The translations under genes and the position numbers were made by a program. Source: Thalassotalea ponticola (GTDB lineage Bacteria > Pseudomonadota > Gammaproteobacteria > Enterobacterales > Alteromonadaceae). From it: DNA of 64,000 nt. Positions 2,111 through 52,263 of this stretch are shown here, piece after piece. Numbering within the stretch: position 1 is the stretch's first letter; each line of letters starts with the position of its first letter. The notes under the pieces are model-generated. The model was not told the origin of the DNA. It searched no databases and was given only the letters and a program-made list of their open reading frames with translations. Location: NCBI RefSeq assembly GCF_041379045.1, contig NZ_CP166871.1:2976001-3040000 (forward strand). Reading direction: 5' to 3'.

Positions 2111-2935
2111 CTACTTAGTACGACGACGTACGATGAACTTGTCAGTACGCTTGTTCTTACGAGTCTTGTAACCTTTAGTAGGTACGCCCCATGGAGATAC
2201 AGGGTGACGACCACCAGAAGTACGACCTTCACCACCACCGTGTGGGTGATCTACCGGGTTCATCGCAACACCACGAACGGTTGGACGAACACCACGCCAG
2301 CGAGTTGCACCCGCTTTACCTAGTGAACGCAACATGTGTTCTGCGTTACCGATTTCACCTAATGTCGCACGACACTCAGCTTCAACTTTACGCATTTCGC
2401 CTGAACGAAGACGTAGAGTTACGTAAGCGCCATCTTTTGCTACTAACTGTGCGTAAGTACCCGCAGCACGAGCGATTTGTGCACCTTTACCAGGCTTAAG
2501 CTCGATTGCGTGAATTACAGAACCTAGTGGCACGTTACGAAGTGGCATAGTGTTACCAGCAGAGATTGGTGCATCTACACCAGACTGCACTGTATCACCA
2601 GCTTTCAGGCCTTTAGGAGCCAAGATGTAACGACGCTCACCGTCTGCGTAAAGTACAAGTGCGATGTTTGCACTGCGGTTTGGATCATATTCCAAACGCT
2701 CTACTTTCGCAGGGATACCATCTTTAGTACGTTTAAAGTCAATCAAACGATAGTGATGCTTGTGACCACCACCAACGTGACGAACTGTAATACGACCAGT
2801 ATTGTTACGACCACCAGACTTAGAGTTTTTCTCTAAAAGAGGCGCGTAAGGCTTACCTTTGTAAAGCTCAGGGTTTACCACCTTAACAACGTGGCGACGA
2901 CCCGGAGAAGTAGGTTTACATTTTACAATAGCCAT
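2111..2935 (-). CDS. rplB: 50S ribosomal protein L2
   Basis: 274 residues, starting [19 protein letters not shown]. The C-terminal half has the highly conserved [17 protein letters not shown] segment that contains the His implicated in peptidyl-transferase centre assembly. L2 is a primary 23S rRNA-binding protein needed for subunit association. It follows rplW with an 11-nt gap in the S10 operon. Confidence 0.98.
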
Positions 2936-5224: not shown

Positions 5225-5375
5225 CGTCGTCCCACCATGTCTTTGTGTGGGATCTCGTGCAGTTTCGAAGTGACTTCGTTGTAGGCGCACTATTACCCAA
5301 GGAGGTCCCACCCTCGGCAACTGCTCCATGGGTTGCTCTACCTCCTGCATCCGTGCAGTCGAAAAGCATGATGGG
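5225..5375 (-). repeat. Intergenic hairpin-repeat cluster upstream of the S10 promoter
   Basis: No reading frame is convincing here. On the minus strand 5360-5312 is a 49-nt unit: palindrome TGCACGGATGCA, then GGTAGA, then stem GCAAC/GTTGC closed by CCATGGAGCA, ending CGAGG. It matches the unit at 17471-17518 almost base for base over GGTAGA..GAGCA..TTG.CGAGG. It is flanked by a stem TCCCAC/GTGGGA (about 5231-5253) and by GTCATCCC/GGGATGAC-type sequence. I read it as a member of the family described at 17.4 and 52 kb. Confidence 0.75.
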
Positions 5376-5521
5376 ATGACGCTGTATATTTTTAAAGATA
5401 GTTCTAAATTGCAATGTGATTTAGTTATAGCCCACTATAGCAACACGAGGTACCGGACATCCGCAGAGCTGATTCCGAGATGACGGTGAGCAAGTTGTTA
5501 GCTCGTTAATACGCCTCTAAC

Positions 5522-5559: not shown

Positions 5560-8382
5560 TTATAGAAGAGGTTTCAGGAACCTTGCGGTATGCGACGTTT
5601 TGTCATCGGCCACCTGCTCTGGCGTGCCGGTAACTAAAATTTGCCCACCACCCGAGCCCCCTTCAGGCCCTAAGTCGACAATCCAGTCGGCGGTTTTGAT
5701 CACATCTAAATTATGTTCAATGATCACAACCGTGTTACCGTGATCGCGCAAGCGATGTAAAACCGCTAACAGTTGTTTAATGTCGTGAAAGTGCAAGCCA
5801 GTAGTCGGTTCATCTAAAATATAGAGAGTTTTGCCCGTGTCGCGTTTCGATAACTCTTTAGATAACTTCACCCGTTGGGCTTCACCACCAGACAAGGTTG
5901 TCGCCGACTGACCTAACTTAATATAGGACAAACCGACATCCATTAGTGTCTGTAATTTACGTTTGACCGCCGGTATAGCGTGAAAAAACTCAAACGCTTC
6001 TTCAATGGTCATATCGAGAACTTCATGAATATTTTTGCCTTTGTAACGAATTTCTAAGGTTTCTCGATTGTATCGCTTGCCCTTACACACATCACAAGGA
6101 ACATACACATCCGGTAAAAAGTGCATTTCAACTTTAATAACGCCATCGCCTTGGCACGCTTCGCATCGTCCACCTTTAACGTTAAAGCTGAAGCGACCTG
6201 GTTTGTAACCGCGCGAGCGCGCTTCTTGCGTAGCGGAAAATATATCGCGGATATTGGTAAAAATCCCCGTATACGTAGCAGGATTGGAACGCGGCGTTCG
6301 TCCGATTGGGCTTTGGTCGATATCGATGACCTTATCAAGTAGCTCTAAACCGGTTATCGATTGATAAGGCGCGGGTTCATCCAATGTCGCGTTATTCAAT
6401 TCTAGGTGCGCTATTTTGTATAAAGTGTCGTTAATTAGCGTAGACTTGCCCGATCCCGATACCCCGGTAATACAAGTCATTAATCCCACCGGAATAGTCA
6501 AATCGACGTTTTTCAAGTTATTACCACTAGCGCCTGTTAGCTCGACAACTGCATCACTGTTATAGGGTGTTCGTGTTTTGGGAACACCGATAGCTTCTTT
6601 GCCACTTAAATACTTACCTGTAAGCGAGTGCTCACTTGACAATATATCTTCTAAAGGTCCACTAGCCACGACCTCGCCACCGTGTACACCGGCACCGGGG
6701 CCAATATCAATGATGTAATCCGCTTCTTTAATTGCGTCTTCATCGTGTTCAACCACAATTACTGTATTACCCAAATCGCGCAGGTGTATCAAGGTTTGTA
6801 GTAGTCGTTCATTGTCGCGTTGATGCAGACCGATAGAGGGTTCATCTAACACGTACATTACACCGACAAGGCCAGCGCCAATTTGCGAAGCGAGACGAAT
6901 GCGTTGAGCTTCACCGCCGGATAGGGTATCGGCACTGCGAGATAAGGTTAAATAATTCAGCCCCACGTTGACCAGAAACCCAAGTCTGTCGTTGATTTCT
7001 TTTAGTATTTTCTCAGCGATCTTTCCCTTCTGCCCCGGTAACTCCAAAGTTTGGAAAAACGCAGAGCAATCGGCTATTGAGTAGTCAACGATATCGTGTA
7101 GTGGTTTGTTATCGACAAAAACATTGCGAGCTTCCAAGCGCAATCGCGATCCGTGACAGCTTGGGCAGTCTTGATTGTTGAGATATTTTGCTAACTCCTC
7201 TCGTACCGCATTCGATTCCGTTTCGCGATAGCGTCGATCCATGTTAACCAAGATACCTTCAAATGGGTGTTTGCGAACCACAATATCACCTCGATCATTC
7301 ATGTACTTGAACTCAACTTCGGTCTTGCCACTACCGTTCAAAATTATTTGTTGAATGTCAGTATCAAGCTGTTCAAATGGAACATTGAGGTCAAAGTCAA
7401 AATGATCCGCGAGCGAGGTTAACATTTGAAAATAATAAAAGTTGCGCTTATCCCAGCCGCGGATGGCTCCGCCCGCTAAGCTTAGTTCTGCATTACTCAC
7501 TACACGTGCAGGATCAAAAAACTGTTTATGGCCTAAACCATCACAGCTTTGACAAGCGCCTGCGGGGTTGTTAAATGAAAATAACTTGGGTTCGGGCTTG
7601 GCCATTGAATAACCACATTGAGGACAAGCAAAGTTGGCAGAAAACAGCAGTTCGTCTTGTTCCGGGTGGTCCATAAAGGCAATCGATGCAATCCCATCGG
7701 TCAACGATAAAGCGGTCTCAAACGACTCGGCTAAGCGAGTTTGAATGTCATCGCGAACTTTTAAGCGGTCGACAACCACTTCAATGGTGTGTTTTTTGTG
7801 TAAATCTAATGGCGGCGGATCCGATAAGTCGCACACTTCGCCGTCAATACGGGCGCGAATGTAGCCTTGAGCGGCTAAATTATCGAGTAATTTAATATGC
7901 TCGCCTTTGCGGTCAACCACCACAGGGGCTAACAGCATTACCTTGCTACCCTCGGGTAACTCAAGCACTTTATCAACCATTTGACTGATAGTTTGTGCAG
8001 CCAGTGGTTCTGCGTGCGTTGGACAGCGAGGTTCACCGACCCGAGCGAATAACAAACGCAAATAGTCGTACACTTCGGTGATGGTTCCGACCGTCGATCT
8101 AGGATTGTGTGATGTCGACTTTTGCTCAATTGAAATTGCTGGGGATAAGCCTTCGATATGATCGACATCTGGTTTTTCCATCAATGACAGAAACTGGCGC
8201 GCGTAAGCAGACAAAGACTCTACGTAACGTCGTTGTCCTTCCGCGTATAATGTGTCAAAGGCGAGTGACGATTTGCCAGAGCCAGATAAGCCGGTAATAA
8301 CAATTAATTTATCACGTGGAATATCAAGATCGATATTTTTTAAGTTGTGGGTACGTGCGCCACGCACTTCAATTTGCTTCAT
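5560..8382 (-). CDS. uvrA: Excinuclease ABC subunit A
   Basis: 940 residues from the ATG at 8382 ([20 protein letters not shown]), identical in length to E. coli UvrA; a longer frame starting at 8466 adds 28 non-conserved residues. It is the damage-recognition ATPase of nucleotide excision repair. Visible are the first Walker [10 protein letters not shown] (residues 31-39), a Cys pair CPQC...CQSC zinc finger, the first LSGGEAQR signature, the second Walker [10 protein letters not shown], the C-terminal CEAC...CDVC zinc finger and a second LSGGEAQR. It is transcribed alone; no clear LexA box was found, but an unusual palindrome lies upstream (8457-8496). Confidence 0.98.
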
Positions 8383-17255: not shown

Positions 17256-17364
17256 GCGGCATGTCGTTGGCCGTAACCTCGTGACACTGAAAAGTGCATA
17301 TAACAGGGGCACTTCATAATTGGCCACTGAAAAGTGGTTAAAAGGGATTTTTATGGACGTACAA
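17256..17364. repeat. Region shared with the tufA 3' flank
   Basis: TTGCGGCATGT, then ACACTGAAAAGTGC, then GGACG(T/C)ACAAACAAAA recur in the same order at about 32200-32274 beside tufA. Two CACT-GAAA-AGTG hairpins occur here (17286-17297, 17323-17334), one at 32. kb. The homology to the tufA flank extends beyond the terminator, so a segment larger than the gene was copied. Confidence 0.6.
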
Positions 17365-17436
17365 ACAAAAAGAGCAGCCATTGGCTGCTCTTTTCAGGTT
17401 TAGTGTTTAAAAATCATTATTCAATGATTTTTGATA
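17365..17436 (-). pseudogene. Dead duplicate of the tuf 3' end with its terminator
   Basis: 72 bases identical to 17801-17872: the tuf terminator hairpin GAGCAGCC/GGCTGCTC, the short trailer and the last codons of tuf (SKIIE-stop). Beyond 17436 the tuf sequence is broken by hairpin unit A, then resumes as CAACACCAGCAC (17533-17545) and CTGTACGAC (17599-17607). It is a relic, not a functional gene. Confidence 0.85.
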
Positions 17437-17470
17437 AACCGCCACGGAAGGTGAGAATGCAAAAAACGCA

Positions 17471-17518
17471 CTAACACATGGACGTGTTTAGGTAGAACAA
17501 TGTAGGAGCAATTGTCGA
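17471..17518 (+). mobile_element. Hairpin unit B nested in the loop of unit A
   Basis: At 52038-52055 unit A reads CAAAAAACGCA-GGAGCAGTTTTTTG without interruption. Here the same sequence is split between CGCA and GGAGCAG by exactly these 48 bases. The inserted unit has CACATGGACGTG, then GGTAGAACAA, a GGAGCA loop and TTGTCGA. It matches the minus-strand unit at 5312-5360. Confidence 0.75.
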
Positions 17519-17547
17519 GGAGCAGTTTTTTGTCAACACCAGCACTA

Positions 17548-17598
17548 TGACCGCCATGGATGGTGGAAATGCCGAAAATGCATGGAGCAATTTTCGGC
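17548..17598 (+). mobile_element. Hairpin unit C inserted in tuf-derived sequence
   Basis: tuf and the 52-kb copy read CAGCACCTACTGTAC; here about 51 bases separate CAGCACTA from CTGTAC. The unit has palindrome CCATGGATGG, then stem CCGAAAA/TTTTCGG with loop TGCATGGAGCAA. It aligns with unit A (CCGCCA-GGA-GGTG...GCA-GGAGCA). Confidence 0.7.
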
Positions 17599-17802
17599 CT
17601 GTACGACTCAAATAAATCATAAATGATTTAGCCCCATGCCGGAGTCATGTGGCAAATTCGGAAAAATTCTTATGGAAAGAATTTTCACAGCTTCGCTGCC
17701 TTTAGGTGGTTGGCATGGATGCCTGACATACAAATTGTCCACTAGGACATTTTTCTCATCGAATTTGTCATCACGGAACACCGTGAAGCCGGCCGTACAT
17801 AC

Positions 17803-17830
17803 AAAAAGAGCAGCCATTGGCTGCTCTTTT
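17803..17830. terminator. Terminator of the extra tuf gene
   Basis: AAAAAGAGCAGCC-ATT-GGCTGCTCTTTT, a perfect 8-bp GC-rich stem with flanking A/T runs, 22 nt after the tuf stop. It is nearly identical to the tufA terminator at 32274. Confidence 0.9.
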
Positions 17831-17852
17831 CAGGTTTAGTGTTTAAAAATCA

Positions 17853-45620: not shown

Positions 45621-45650
45621 AAAAAGGCCGGTGACATTAGTCACCAGCCA
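45621..45650 (-). terminator. Attenuator hairpin between rplL and rpoB
   Basis: The minus strand reads GGCTGGTGAC-TAAT-GTCACCGGCC followed by TTTTT, inside the 319-nt rplL-rpoB spacer. In E. coli an attenuator and an RNase III site in the same spacer set polymerase below L7/L12 levels. The remaining 250 nt hold no gene. Confidence 0.75.
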
Positions 45651-45687
45651 TTGCCTAAATTAGGCAGCTAATCTGTATGTATACAGA

Positions 45688-51902: not shown

Positions 51903-51941
51903 AAACATACAAAAAGAGCAGCCGTGAAGCCGGCCGTACAT
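51903..51941 (+). repeat. Partial duplication at the edge of the 52-kb array
   Basis: ACATACAAAAAGAGCAGCC occurs twice in a row (from 51904 and 51938), separated by GTGAAGCCGGCCGT. The same run, GTGAAGCCGGCCGTACAT, borders the tuf terminator at 17783-17800. It looks like a footprint of recombination between the 17-kb and 52-kb arrays. Confidence 0.65.
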
Positions 51942-52013
51942 ACAAAAAGAGCAGCCAATGGCTGCTCTTTTCAGGTTTAGTGTTTAAAAATCATTATTCA
52001 ATGATTTTAGATA
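51942..52013 (-). pseudogene. Dead duplicate of the tuf 3' end with its terminator
   Basis: 72 bases matching 17801-17872 except for a few substitutions: terminator hairpin GAGCAGCC/GGCTGCTC, trailer and terminal tuf codons. Beyond 52013 hairpin unit A interrupts it, then tuf sequence resumes at 52063-52083 (CAACACCAGCACCTACTGTAC) and stops. The real tufB lies further on at 52264. Confidence 0.85.
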
Positions 52014-52062
52014 AACCGCCACGGAAGGTGAGAATGCAAAAAACGCAGGAGCAGTTTTTTGT
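52014..52062 (+). mobile_element. Hairpin unit A inserted in the dead tuf tail (uninterrupted copy)
   Basis: 49 bases separate GATA and CAACACC, which are contiguous in the intact tuf genes. The unit has CCGCCACGGAAGGTG, then stem CAAAAAA/TTTTTTG around CGCAGGAGCAG. The same unit at the same tuf position occurs at 17437-17532, there split by unit B, so both loci descend from one event. Confidence 0.8.
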
Positions 52063-52083
52063 CAACACCAGCACCTACTGTAC

Positions 52084-52200
52084 AGGTTAACCATCAATGG
52101 TTAATCCAAATACCTGAGGCATTTGGCAAATTCTGGAAAATTGTCCACTAGGACATTTTTCTAATCGAATTTGTCATCACGGAACTCCGTGAAGTCGTAC
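52084..52200 (+). repeat. Hairpin-rich remainder of the 52-kb array
   Basis: Consecutive hairpins: TTAACCAT/ATGGTTAA (52087-52104), CAAATTC/GAATTTG (about 52126-52174) enclosing TGTCC-ACTA-GGACA, and TCACGG/CCGTGA (52177-52192). Each has a positional counterpart at 17611-17785, with compensating changes in the first. The 17-kb version carries 67 extra bases (17668-17734). Confidence 0.7.
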
Positions 52201-52216
52201 GTACTTTTGTCGGCGT

Positions 52217-52249
52217 AAAAAAAAGGTCGCAAATGCGACCTTCTTTTTT
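52217..52249. terminator. Terminator of tufB
   Basis: AAAAGGTCGC-AAA-TGCGACCTTCTTTTTT. The stem equals that of the fusA2 terminator (21536) rather than the other tuf terminators, so this tuf copy acquired a different 3' end. Confidence 0.88.
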
Positions 52250-52263
52250 AGCTATTTCAAAAA

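Follow-up and report, generated by a model that had tools for sequence, protein, structure and literature searches.

A widespread two-hairpin repeat of about 48 nt in Thalassotalea ponticola, probably a gene-less mobile element

The DNA analysed here (the window) is a stretch of 64,000 nt of the Thalassotalea ponticola contig NZ_CP166871.1. Two of its regions (17355..17852 and 51932..52263, both repeat D4) contain a duplicated tuf terminator together with a stub of the tuf 3' end, the first hosting the hairpin units A, B and C and the second another copy of A. The initial annotation had described five units of one design in the window, and all five were confirmed, with coordinates checked by script. 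Its delimitation of A as a unit of 96 nt (17437-17532) has to be corrected, since A is 47 nt long and holds B inside the loop of its second hairpin. Unit B (48 nt, 17471..17518, plus strand) was inserted at CGCA^GGAG and separates the 5' part of A, with hairpin 1 and the left arm of hairpin 2 (17440..17470, plus strand, identical in its letters to 52017-52047), from the 3' part with GGAGCA and the right arm (17519..17534, plus strand, repeat D9). Since A is split by B at 17440-17534, while the same A is found whole at 52017..52063 (plus strand), where it represents the empty site for B, the window contains five copies but four sequences. Unit C (47 nt, 17552..17598, plus strand) scores 64 bits with our covariance model. 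The remaining unit E (48 nt, type I, 5314..5361, minus strand) scores 67.1 bits and sits within a host palindrome, CGTCATCCCA...(unit)...TGGGACC (5301..5381, minus strand), with a paired run of 5 bp; by eye this is a CGTC-type REP, a label taken from the definitions given in PMC3733652.

The element has a length of about 47-51 nt and is composed, in this order, of hairpin 1, a linker and hairpin 2. In the window units the stem of hairpin 1 measures 4-5 bp and encloses the six-base loop A-N-GGA-N. Hairpin 2 combines a 4-9 bp stem with the loop GC-A(N)-GGA-GC, which adjoins an A; the hairpin-2 loop of E carries CC instead of GC. From hairpin 1 to the hairpin-2 loop the spacing is 13-14 nt, including the left arm of hairpin 2.

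Blocks of terminator and tuf 3' end are often duplicated downstream of tuf in the genus of the window, with or without units, and those of G010 (L403) are free of them. In the tuf blocks of other genomes units were seen by eye at two positions, the unit of G008 (L392) being placed like A. Units also adjoin 5S genes in antisense orientation (L042, L047, L074, L079). The copies at tuf and 5S genes are partly inherited or duplicated and do not all represent fresh insertions. Stubs similar to those of tuf were noticed by eye at tRNA-Phe (L071) and 5S (L047). The tuf blocks contain in addition a second hairpin element, AAATTGTCCACTAGGACATTTTTCTCATCGAATTTG followed by CACGGAACACCGTG (17732-17798 and 52138-52204 in the window), whose stems differ by eye between relatives and stay paired. 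Elsewhere in the window, positions 45625-45680 on the minus strand match the Pseudomonas sRNA P26 in Rfam (RF00630, 44 bits).

A covariance model (R1) was built from five sequences, three window copies and two further copies from the same genome. Its E-values are rough, and it recovers all five window units, the split A weakly (30-nt match, 16.3 bits, E 0.017). Thirteen matches at E ≤ 0.01 were obtained in the own genome; together with arm pairing far above that of shuffled arms (see below) this is more than chance would give. The word CATGGAGCA by itself is mildly enriched, with 20 occurrences against 11 for the reversed control. A covariance-model scan had been proposed in the initial annotation, and it returned tens of sites per genome with compensatory stem changes. 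In the relative G002 the count is 79 at E ≤ 0.1, rising to 80 at E ≤ 1, and G005 reaches 47 at E ≤ 0.1. Within the set of 39 relatives, own genome included, the model finds the unit in 32 genomes at E ≤ 1 and in 23 at the stricter E ≤ 1e-6, the latter comprising all 15 genomes of the window's genus. At E ≤ 1e-6 the class sample contains 74 carriers among 369 genomes; the phylum sample has 29 among 398, of which 11 come from outside the class; in both scans 15-16 candidates were scored per genome under stricter filters, so that counts per genome are lower bounds.

At least 116 stretches of named genomes share one exact 48-mer, which is common to several orders. Among 80 listed stretches 25 belong to Methylobacter and 24 to Shewanella, and the other listed carriers are Lysobacteraceae, Methylococcaceae, Methylovulum, Thiotrichaceae and unassigned MAGs. 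The units of L127 and L164 are identical over 50 nt, while the neighbouring pieces are only 70-73% alike. Head-to-tail arrays occur with a period of 47 (L123) or 50-51 (G009). In the plasmid collection the unit is present on five Pseudoalteromonas replicons, with 36-nt matches in two other plasmids. The family is real, very widespread, and found among many water and soil bacteria. Three viral contigs carry a unit as well, and two of them have a 6.7-kb region in common, in which the unit has a Baseplate_J gene on one side and, on the other, a gene matching Tail_P2_I just below the cut-off. This type I copy among phage tail genes (L238 ~7965-8012, IMGVR_UViG_3300004175_000006; also L236) means that phages could carry the element from host to host; a blastn search of 50,697 phage records found no unit.

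The initial annotation had noted variable stems that stay self-complementary under fixed loops, and this is borne out over 137 distinct units, which were picked from all loci and the window by their loop sequence alone, without demanding pairing. Stem positions are paired in 94% of cases in hairpin 1, compared to a mean of 63% and a maximum of 67% for shuffled arms, and likewise in 94% in hairpin 2, compared to a mean of 75% and a maximum of 78% (right arms dealt to other units, 200 shuffles, G-T counted as a pair). Full stems are present in 117 of the 137 units for hairpin 1 (4 bp) and in 116 for hairpin 2 (5 bp), with 24 and 14 different full-stem sequences, respectively. As most loci were obtained via the covariance model or by matching an exact pattern, these figures under-represent units with broken stems. 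Folding of single sequences beats shuffles for A (z -2.3) and C (z -3.0) but not for B (z 0.4) and E (z -0.6), and the structural claim therefore rests on the comparison. The wobble counts (GT/TG 18, AC/CA 11) do not indicate which strand folds.

Filled and empty sites document individual insertions. In the window the pair is provided by B and the two copies of A, and since B ends in A, a possible duplication is limited there to one base (A). In pglX of the BREX-1 system on a Moellerella plasmid (L239 1718-5428) a 48-nt variant of the unit follows GCAGA^CAAC, whereas pglX of E. coli and Klebsiella is without the unit and matches the sequence on both sides of the insertion. The insertion keeps the reading frame and adds 16 residues. 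MAFFT drew the gap 9 nt further left, but the placement at GCAGA^CAAC matches the flank letters exactly; as left flank and unit both end in GA, a possible duplication is limited to two bases. The same insertion, plus a further upstream loss, is found in pglX of a Salmonella plasmid (L243). In L071 units split tRNA 3'-end stubs at CCCA^GAGG, with an intact tRNA-Phe gene in the same locus. Exact insertions with the same ends were also observed in many unrelated hosts.

For site statistics, 274 motif matches in 317 loci were reduced to 216 with both stems and 204 with full flanks, of which 70 were dropped because they shared a 15-nt flank with another site, leaving 134 flank-distinct sites. With the ends set at fixed distances from the loops, A precedes the unit in 93 and G follows it in 108 of these 134 sites. 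For the 92 sites with recognisable ends (start CGAC or CTA(A/G), finish (C/T)CGA) the numbers are 77 and 85, and the units measure 47 nt (65 sites), 48 nt (25) or 49 nt (2); other unit types reach about 51 nt, as in the G009 arrays. The start is CGAC in 77 of the 134, and CTAG, CTAA or other in the rest. Part of the preference for A could stem from the element's own terminal A. The preceding base is not A in 15 of the 92 sites, which speaks against a constant one-base duplication. Insertion is exact, mostly between A and G, and no duplication beyond 1-2 bases accompanies it. The element is almost certainly mobile.

The two flanks of a unit are often complementary to each other. Looking 20 nt to either side, arms of 7 bp or more are present at 25 of the 134 sites (1.9 expected with right flanks swapped), and arms of at least 5 bp at 66 (24.6 expected). 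Forty sites have arms of 6 bp or more; both gaps are no longer than 8 nt in 22 of these, and the other 18 are not tight loops. Twenty sites lie inside CGTC-type REPs according to a loose pattern; 11 have the form [GC][CT]A^(N)GGAGC, eight of which by eye in the hairpin-2 loop of another unit, and five the form GGA^GG, where the L120 site by eye splits another unit just past hairpin 1 and the L155 site lies in other sequence. Units also split, judging by eye, a stem resembling a terminator (L317) and the CTCCC..GGGAG palindromes of Methylovulum (L130). Units are enriched inside palindromes and nest in each other, although the preference for palindromes could partly reflect places that tolerate insertion. 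A host palindrome TTTCTTTT...AAAAGAAA with arms of 12-13 bp, split by units in L154, L132 and L204, is probably another repeat family.

Taken as a whole, these observations are probably best explained by a non-autonomous miniature mobile element with two-hairpin recognition and structure-guided insertion. The initial annotation had proposed that either the structure is under selection or the units move as a folded single strand; that they move is shown by the filled and empty sites, and for the route we infer a single-stranded intermediate and a hairpin-binding (HUH-like) enzyme. The element would be recognised as two folded hairpins with fixed loops ANGGAN and GC-A(N)GGA-GC, the stems being free to vary provided that they pair. 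A trans-acting enzyme would cut at the element ends, and insertion would occur mostly between A and G, with the 1-2 shared bases attributable to the element's own end. Favoured sites would be in or beside palindrome loops, such as CGTC-type REPs, a terminator, or the element's own hairpin-2 loop (GCA^GGAGC), and because of the latter copies would nest. That the element moves as a folded single strand is proposed as the likelier course of events, whereas it seems rather doubtful that a Y1-type HUH enzyme moves it.

A moving enzyme was looked for next to the units and, for the Y1 family, genome-wide. Clustering of 643 ORFs (≥ 90 aa) from 112 loci gave no recurring family recognised as a transposase; the largest ORF family is present in 7 loci, and none of the 25 largest is a transposase by eye. 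Autonomous copies had been considered at L138, L150 and L184 and were rejected, since paired units enclose ordinary ORFs there (LysR, GyrI-like, ABC transporter, ParB, one lacking a Pfam match) besides a single IS110 transposase. The latter, an IS110-family gene at L150 2404-3494, has its stop codon about 30 bp from a unit.

The RAYT/IS200-like link suggested by the initial annotation found support in a whole-genome statistical association but not in the gene neighbourhoods. The corresponding alternative treats the unit as a doublet of the GTAG REP type that RAYT (TnpA-REP) would move, hairpin 2 being the REP and GTAG of the linker the tag, and we judge it unlikely. According to PMC8266576 the hairpins bound by RAYT enzymes are single-stranded and have a 5' GTAG, and 44 of 74 distinct units show [GT]TAG immediately in front of hairpin 2. 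The linkers of these 74 contain GTAG (35), TTAG (10), another TAG (2) or no TAG at all (27), the last group being at odds with a tag. In the class sample the Y1 domain (PF01797) was found at E ≤ 1e-5 in 61 of 74 carriers and in 164 of 295 other genomes (odds ratio 3.7, p = 1.6e-5, with no correction for descent or genome size). The 13 carriers without such a match speak against RAYT and include G401, a single contig rated 100% complete with at least five unit matches; G001 and G019 likewise have 14-20 units yet no Y1 match at E ≤ 0.001. In the relatives, Y1 counts do not follow unit counts. In 20 chosen Y1 loci of carriers, some clipped by contig ends, there were four model matches at E ≤ 1, two of them at E > 0.5; within about 3 kb, L356 has a strong unit (53 bits), which the Y1 domain follows or precedes at about 0.9 kb, and L361 a weak match (21.5 bits) at about 2 kb, and a RAYT gene flanked by repeats did not occur among these 20. 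Since the chosen Y1 genes are not flanked by units, RAYT is possible but unsupported by the usual sign. Insertion mostly at A^G also contrasts with cleavage of single-stranded REPs by RAYT at CT or CA, as described in PMC8266576.

Among 30 loci from the Y1 search, ten have a hairpin with a GGA loop whose stem is 5 bp or longer, and the proteins of these ten loci have 237-277 aa in seven cases and 140, 153 and 205 aa in the others. In four genomes of the window's genus a conserved leader with GGA hairpins lies about 0.3-0.7 kb upstream of a Y1-domain gene (L109 ~1107-1200; L111 741-832; L112 ~2190-2290, minus strand; L114 1006-1098). None of the four loci has an Rfam match at E ≤ 1; the leader resembles a CsrA-binding RNA. 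Among the 20 carrier loci, 18 of which are outside this genus, a GGA-loop hairpin was found outside the genus only in L367, and we therefore treat the Y1 leader as a feature separate from the unit.

The CsrA consensus is A(N)GGA, and this word is present in both loops of the unit, which would fit an RNA element whose GGA loops serve as CsrA/Rsm sites, regulatory or as decoys in transcripts. The hairpin cluster upstream of the Y1-domain gene in the same genus would agree with such a role. Orientation does not. From the 216 units, 121 are intergenic between two called ORFs and 77 are at a locus edge; the former lie in convergent (46) or divergent (11) gaps or, between genes of the same direction, are sense (30) or antisense (34), with array copies not collapsed, and 18 of the 216 are inside ORFs of 450 nt or more, several of these ORFs seeming spurious. 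The 134 flank-distinct sites comprise 24 convergent, 7 divergent, 25 sense and 25 antisense sites, 12 in ORFs and 41 at an edge. As sense and antisense are even, nothing points to a need for transcription of one particular strand, and units are antisense to tuf (window), tRNA-Phe (L071) and the four 5S loci named above. The units gave no Rfam match, and self-nesting and exact insertion demand mobility anyway, so that we regard an RNA element as very unlikely.

Orientation relative to replication was analysed in nine genomes, merging 294 matches at E ≤ 0.01 into 212 clusters, with the origin set by dnaA and the terminus assumed opposite; G019, whose origin was not placed, was left out. Units run against the fork in 133 clusters compared to 79 (p = 2.5e-4), with differences between genomes (G005 33/41, G001 8/9, G004 18/33, and G010 12/34, where the bias is reversed). 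Of 62 units checked, 44 have genes on both sides, and for these fork direction is confounded with gene orientation. The replication-strand bias, striking by eye in G005 and G002, was therefore rejected as proof, being uneven and confounded with gene direction. An origin of the unit as a coding motif (DDCMDAGGRATQEQLPR) was also rejected, since the motif stems from the in-frame pglX insertion and from ORFs several of which look spurious; no gene of origin for it was found. In L222 (7234-7283) a unit without a stop is antisense to the reading frame and lies in a protein linker, the host protein being presumably of the phosphomannomutase type.

A site-specific recombinase, of IS110 or tyrosine type, that moves a circular double-stranded unit would account for the little or absent target duplication, the short preferred core, the hairpin targets and the head-to-tail arrays, and the L150 unit does lie close to an IS110 gene. 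However, this is the sole IS110 gene seen in the unit neighbourhoods examined, no family recognised as a transposase recurs in the clustered ORFs, and paired stems of free sequence argue for recognition of a fold, which makes a recombinase highly improbable. Spread solely via recombination or duplication of REP-rich intergenic DNA, without transposition, would suit the blocks repeated in tandem at the 3' ends of tRNA, 5S and tuf genes and the arrays of L123 and G009, but was already disfavoured and is extremely improbable given an exact 48-nt insertion in the otherwise aligned coding sequence of pglX and the same ends in many unrelated hosts.

We return to the miniature mobile element guided by structure. 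It is conceivable, without our leaning towards it, that the units represent a widespread gene-less class of about 48 nt, with no linked transposase, which targets loops of folded DNA via a single-strand route and depends on a trans-acting or host enzyme. PMC3733652 describes CGTC REPs as apparently without a dedicated transposase, which raises the question of how gene-less palindromic repeats multiply. The present family offers clean insertions with known ends, e.g., in the defence gene pglX and in each other, and with carrier genera including Shewanella and Methylobacter the question of multiplication is now testable with a small marked element. The element adds an in-frame peptide in pglX and may mislead gene calling in intergenic DNA.

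The initial annotation did not recognise a named family, and in agreement with this no Rfam match covers the units (window at gathering score; four-copy Shewanella array at E ≤ 1). Neither the unit words nor the peptide were found in the open literature, and keyword searches brought up no description either; since supplements, subscription papers and preprints lay outside the search, a description may exist. Rickettsia palindromic elements (RPE) and similar intragenic repeats are palindromic and lie in frame inside genes, like the unit in pglX, but RPE belong to an unrelated host group and presumably differ in unit length and sequence. MITEs are likewise short, non-autonomous and of high copy number; the unit, by eye, has no terminal inverted repeats, duplications longer than 1-2 bases are absent at pglX and at B in A, and no autonomous element sharing the unit ends was seen in the neighbourhoods examined. 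A paper on Thiomargarita MITEs (PMC4853749) was considered as a match and rejected, since it describes other elements.

For the REPs, PMC3733652 (Di Nocera et al. 2013) defines GTAG and CGTC types and notes that some REP dimers lie inside palindromes. CGTC-type REPs are palindromic, occupy the same intergenic gaps and have no known dedicated transposase, as is the case for the unit, but a CGTC REP is one hairpin of 20-40 bp that serves as host, whereas the unit has two hairpins. The unit does not fit their design of a single 8-9 bp stem, a loop of 4-5, a CGTC tag and a short tail. GTAG REPs or REPINs with RAYT resemble it in tens of short palindromic extragenic repeats per genome with covarying stems, which are likely read as single-stranded hairpins. 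The unit, in contrast, has two unlike hairpins, conserves its loops instead of one tag, inserts mostly at A^G and has the same sequence across orders; an unpaired GTAG at the foot of each palindrome was not observed, as no such constant tag stands before hairpin 1. The unit differs from IS608 by having no transposase gene between its hairpins and no target word beyond A^G and, at some sites, GCA^GGAGC, but the IS200/IS605 family (IS608) works alike in its two subterminal hairpins, its lack of target duplication and its proposed single-stranded route (partly after PMC8266576).
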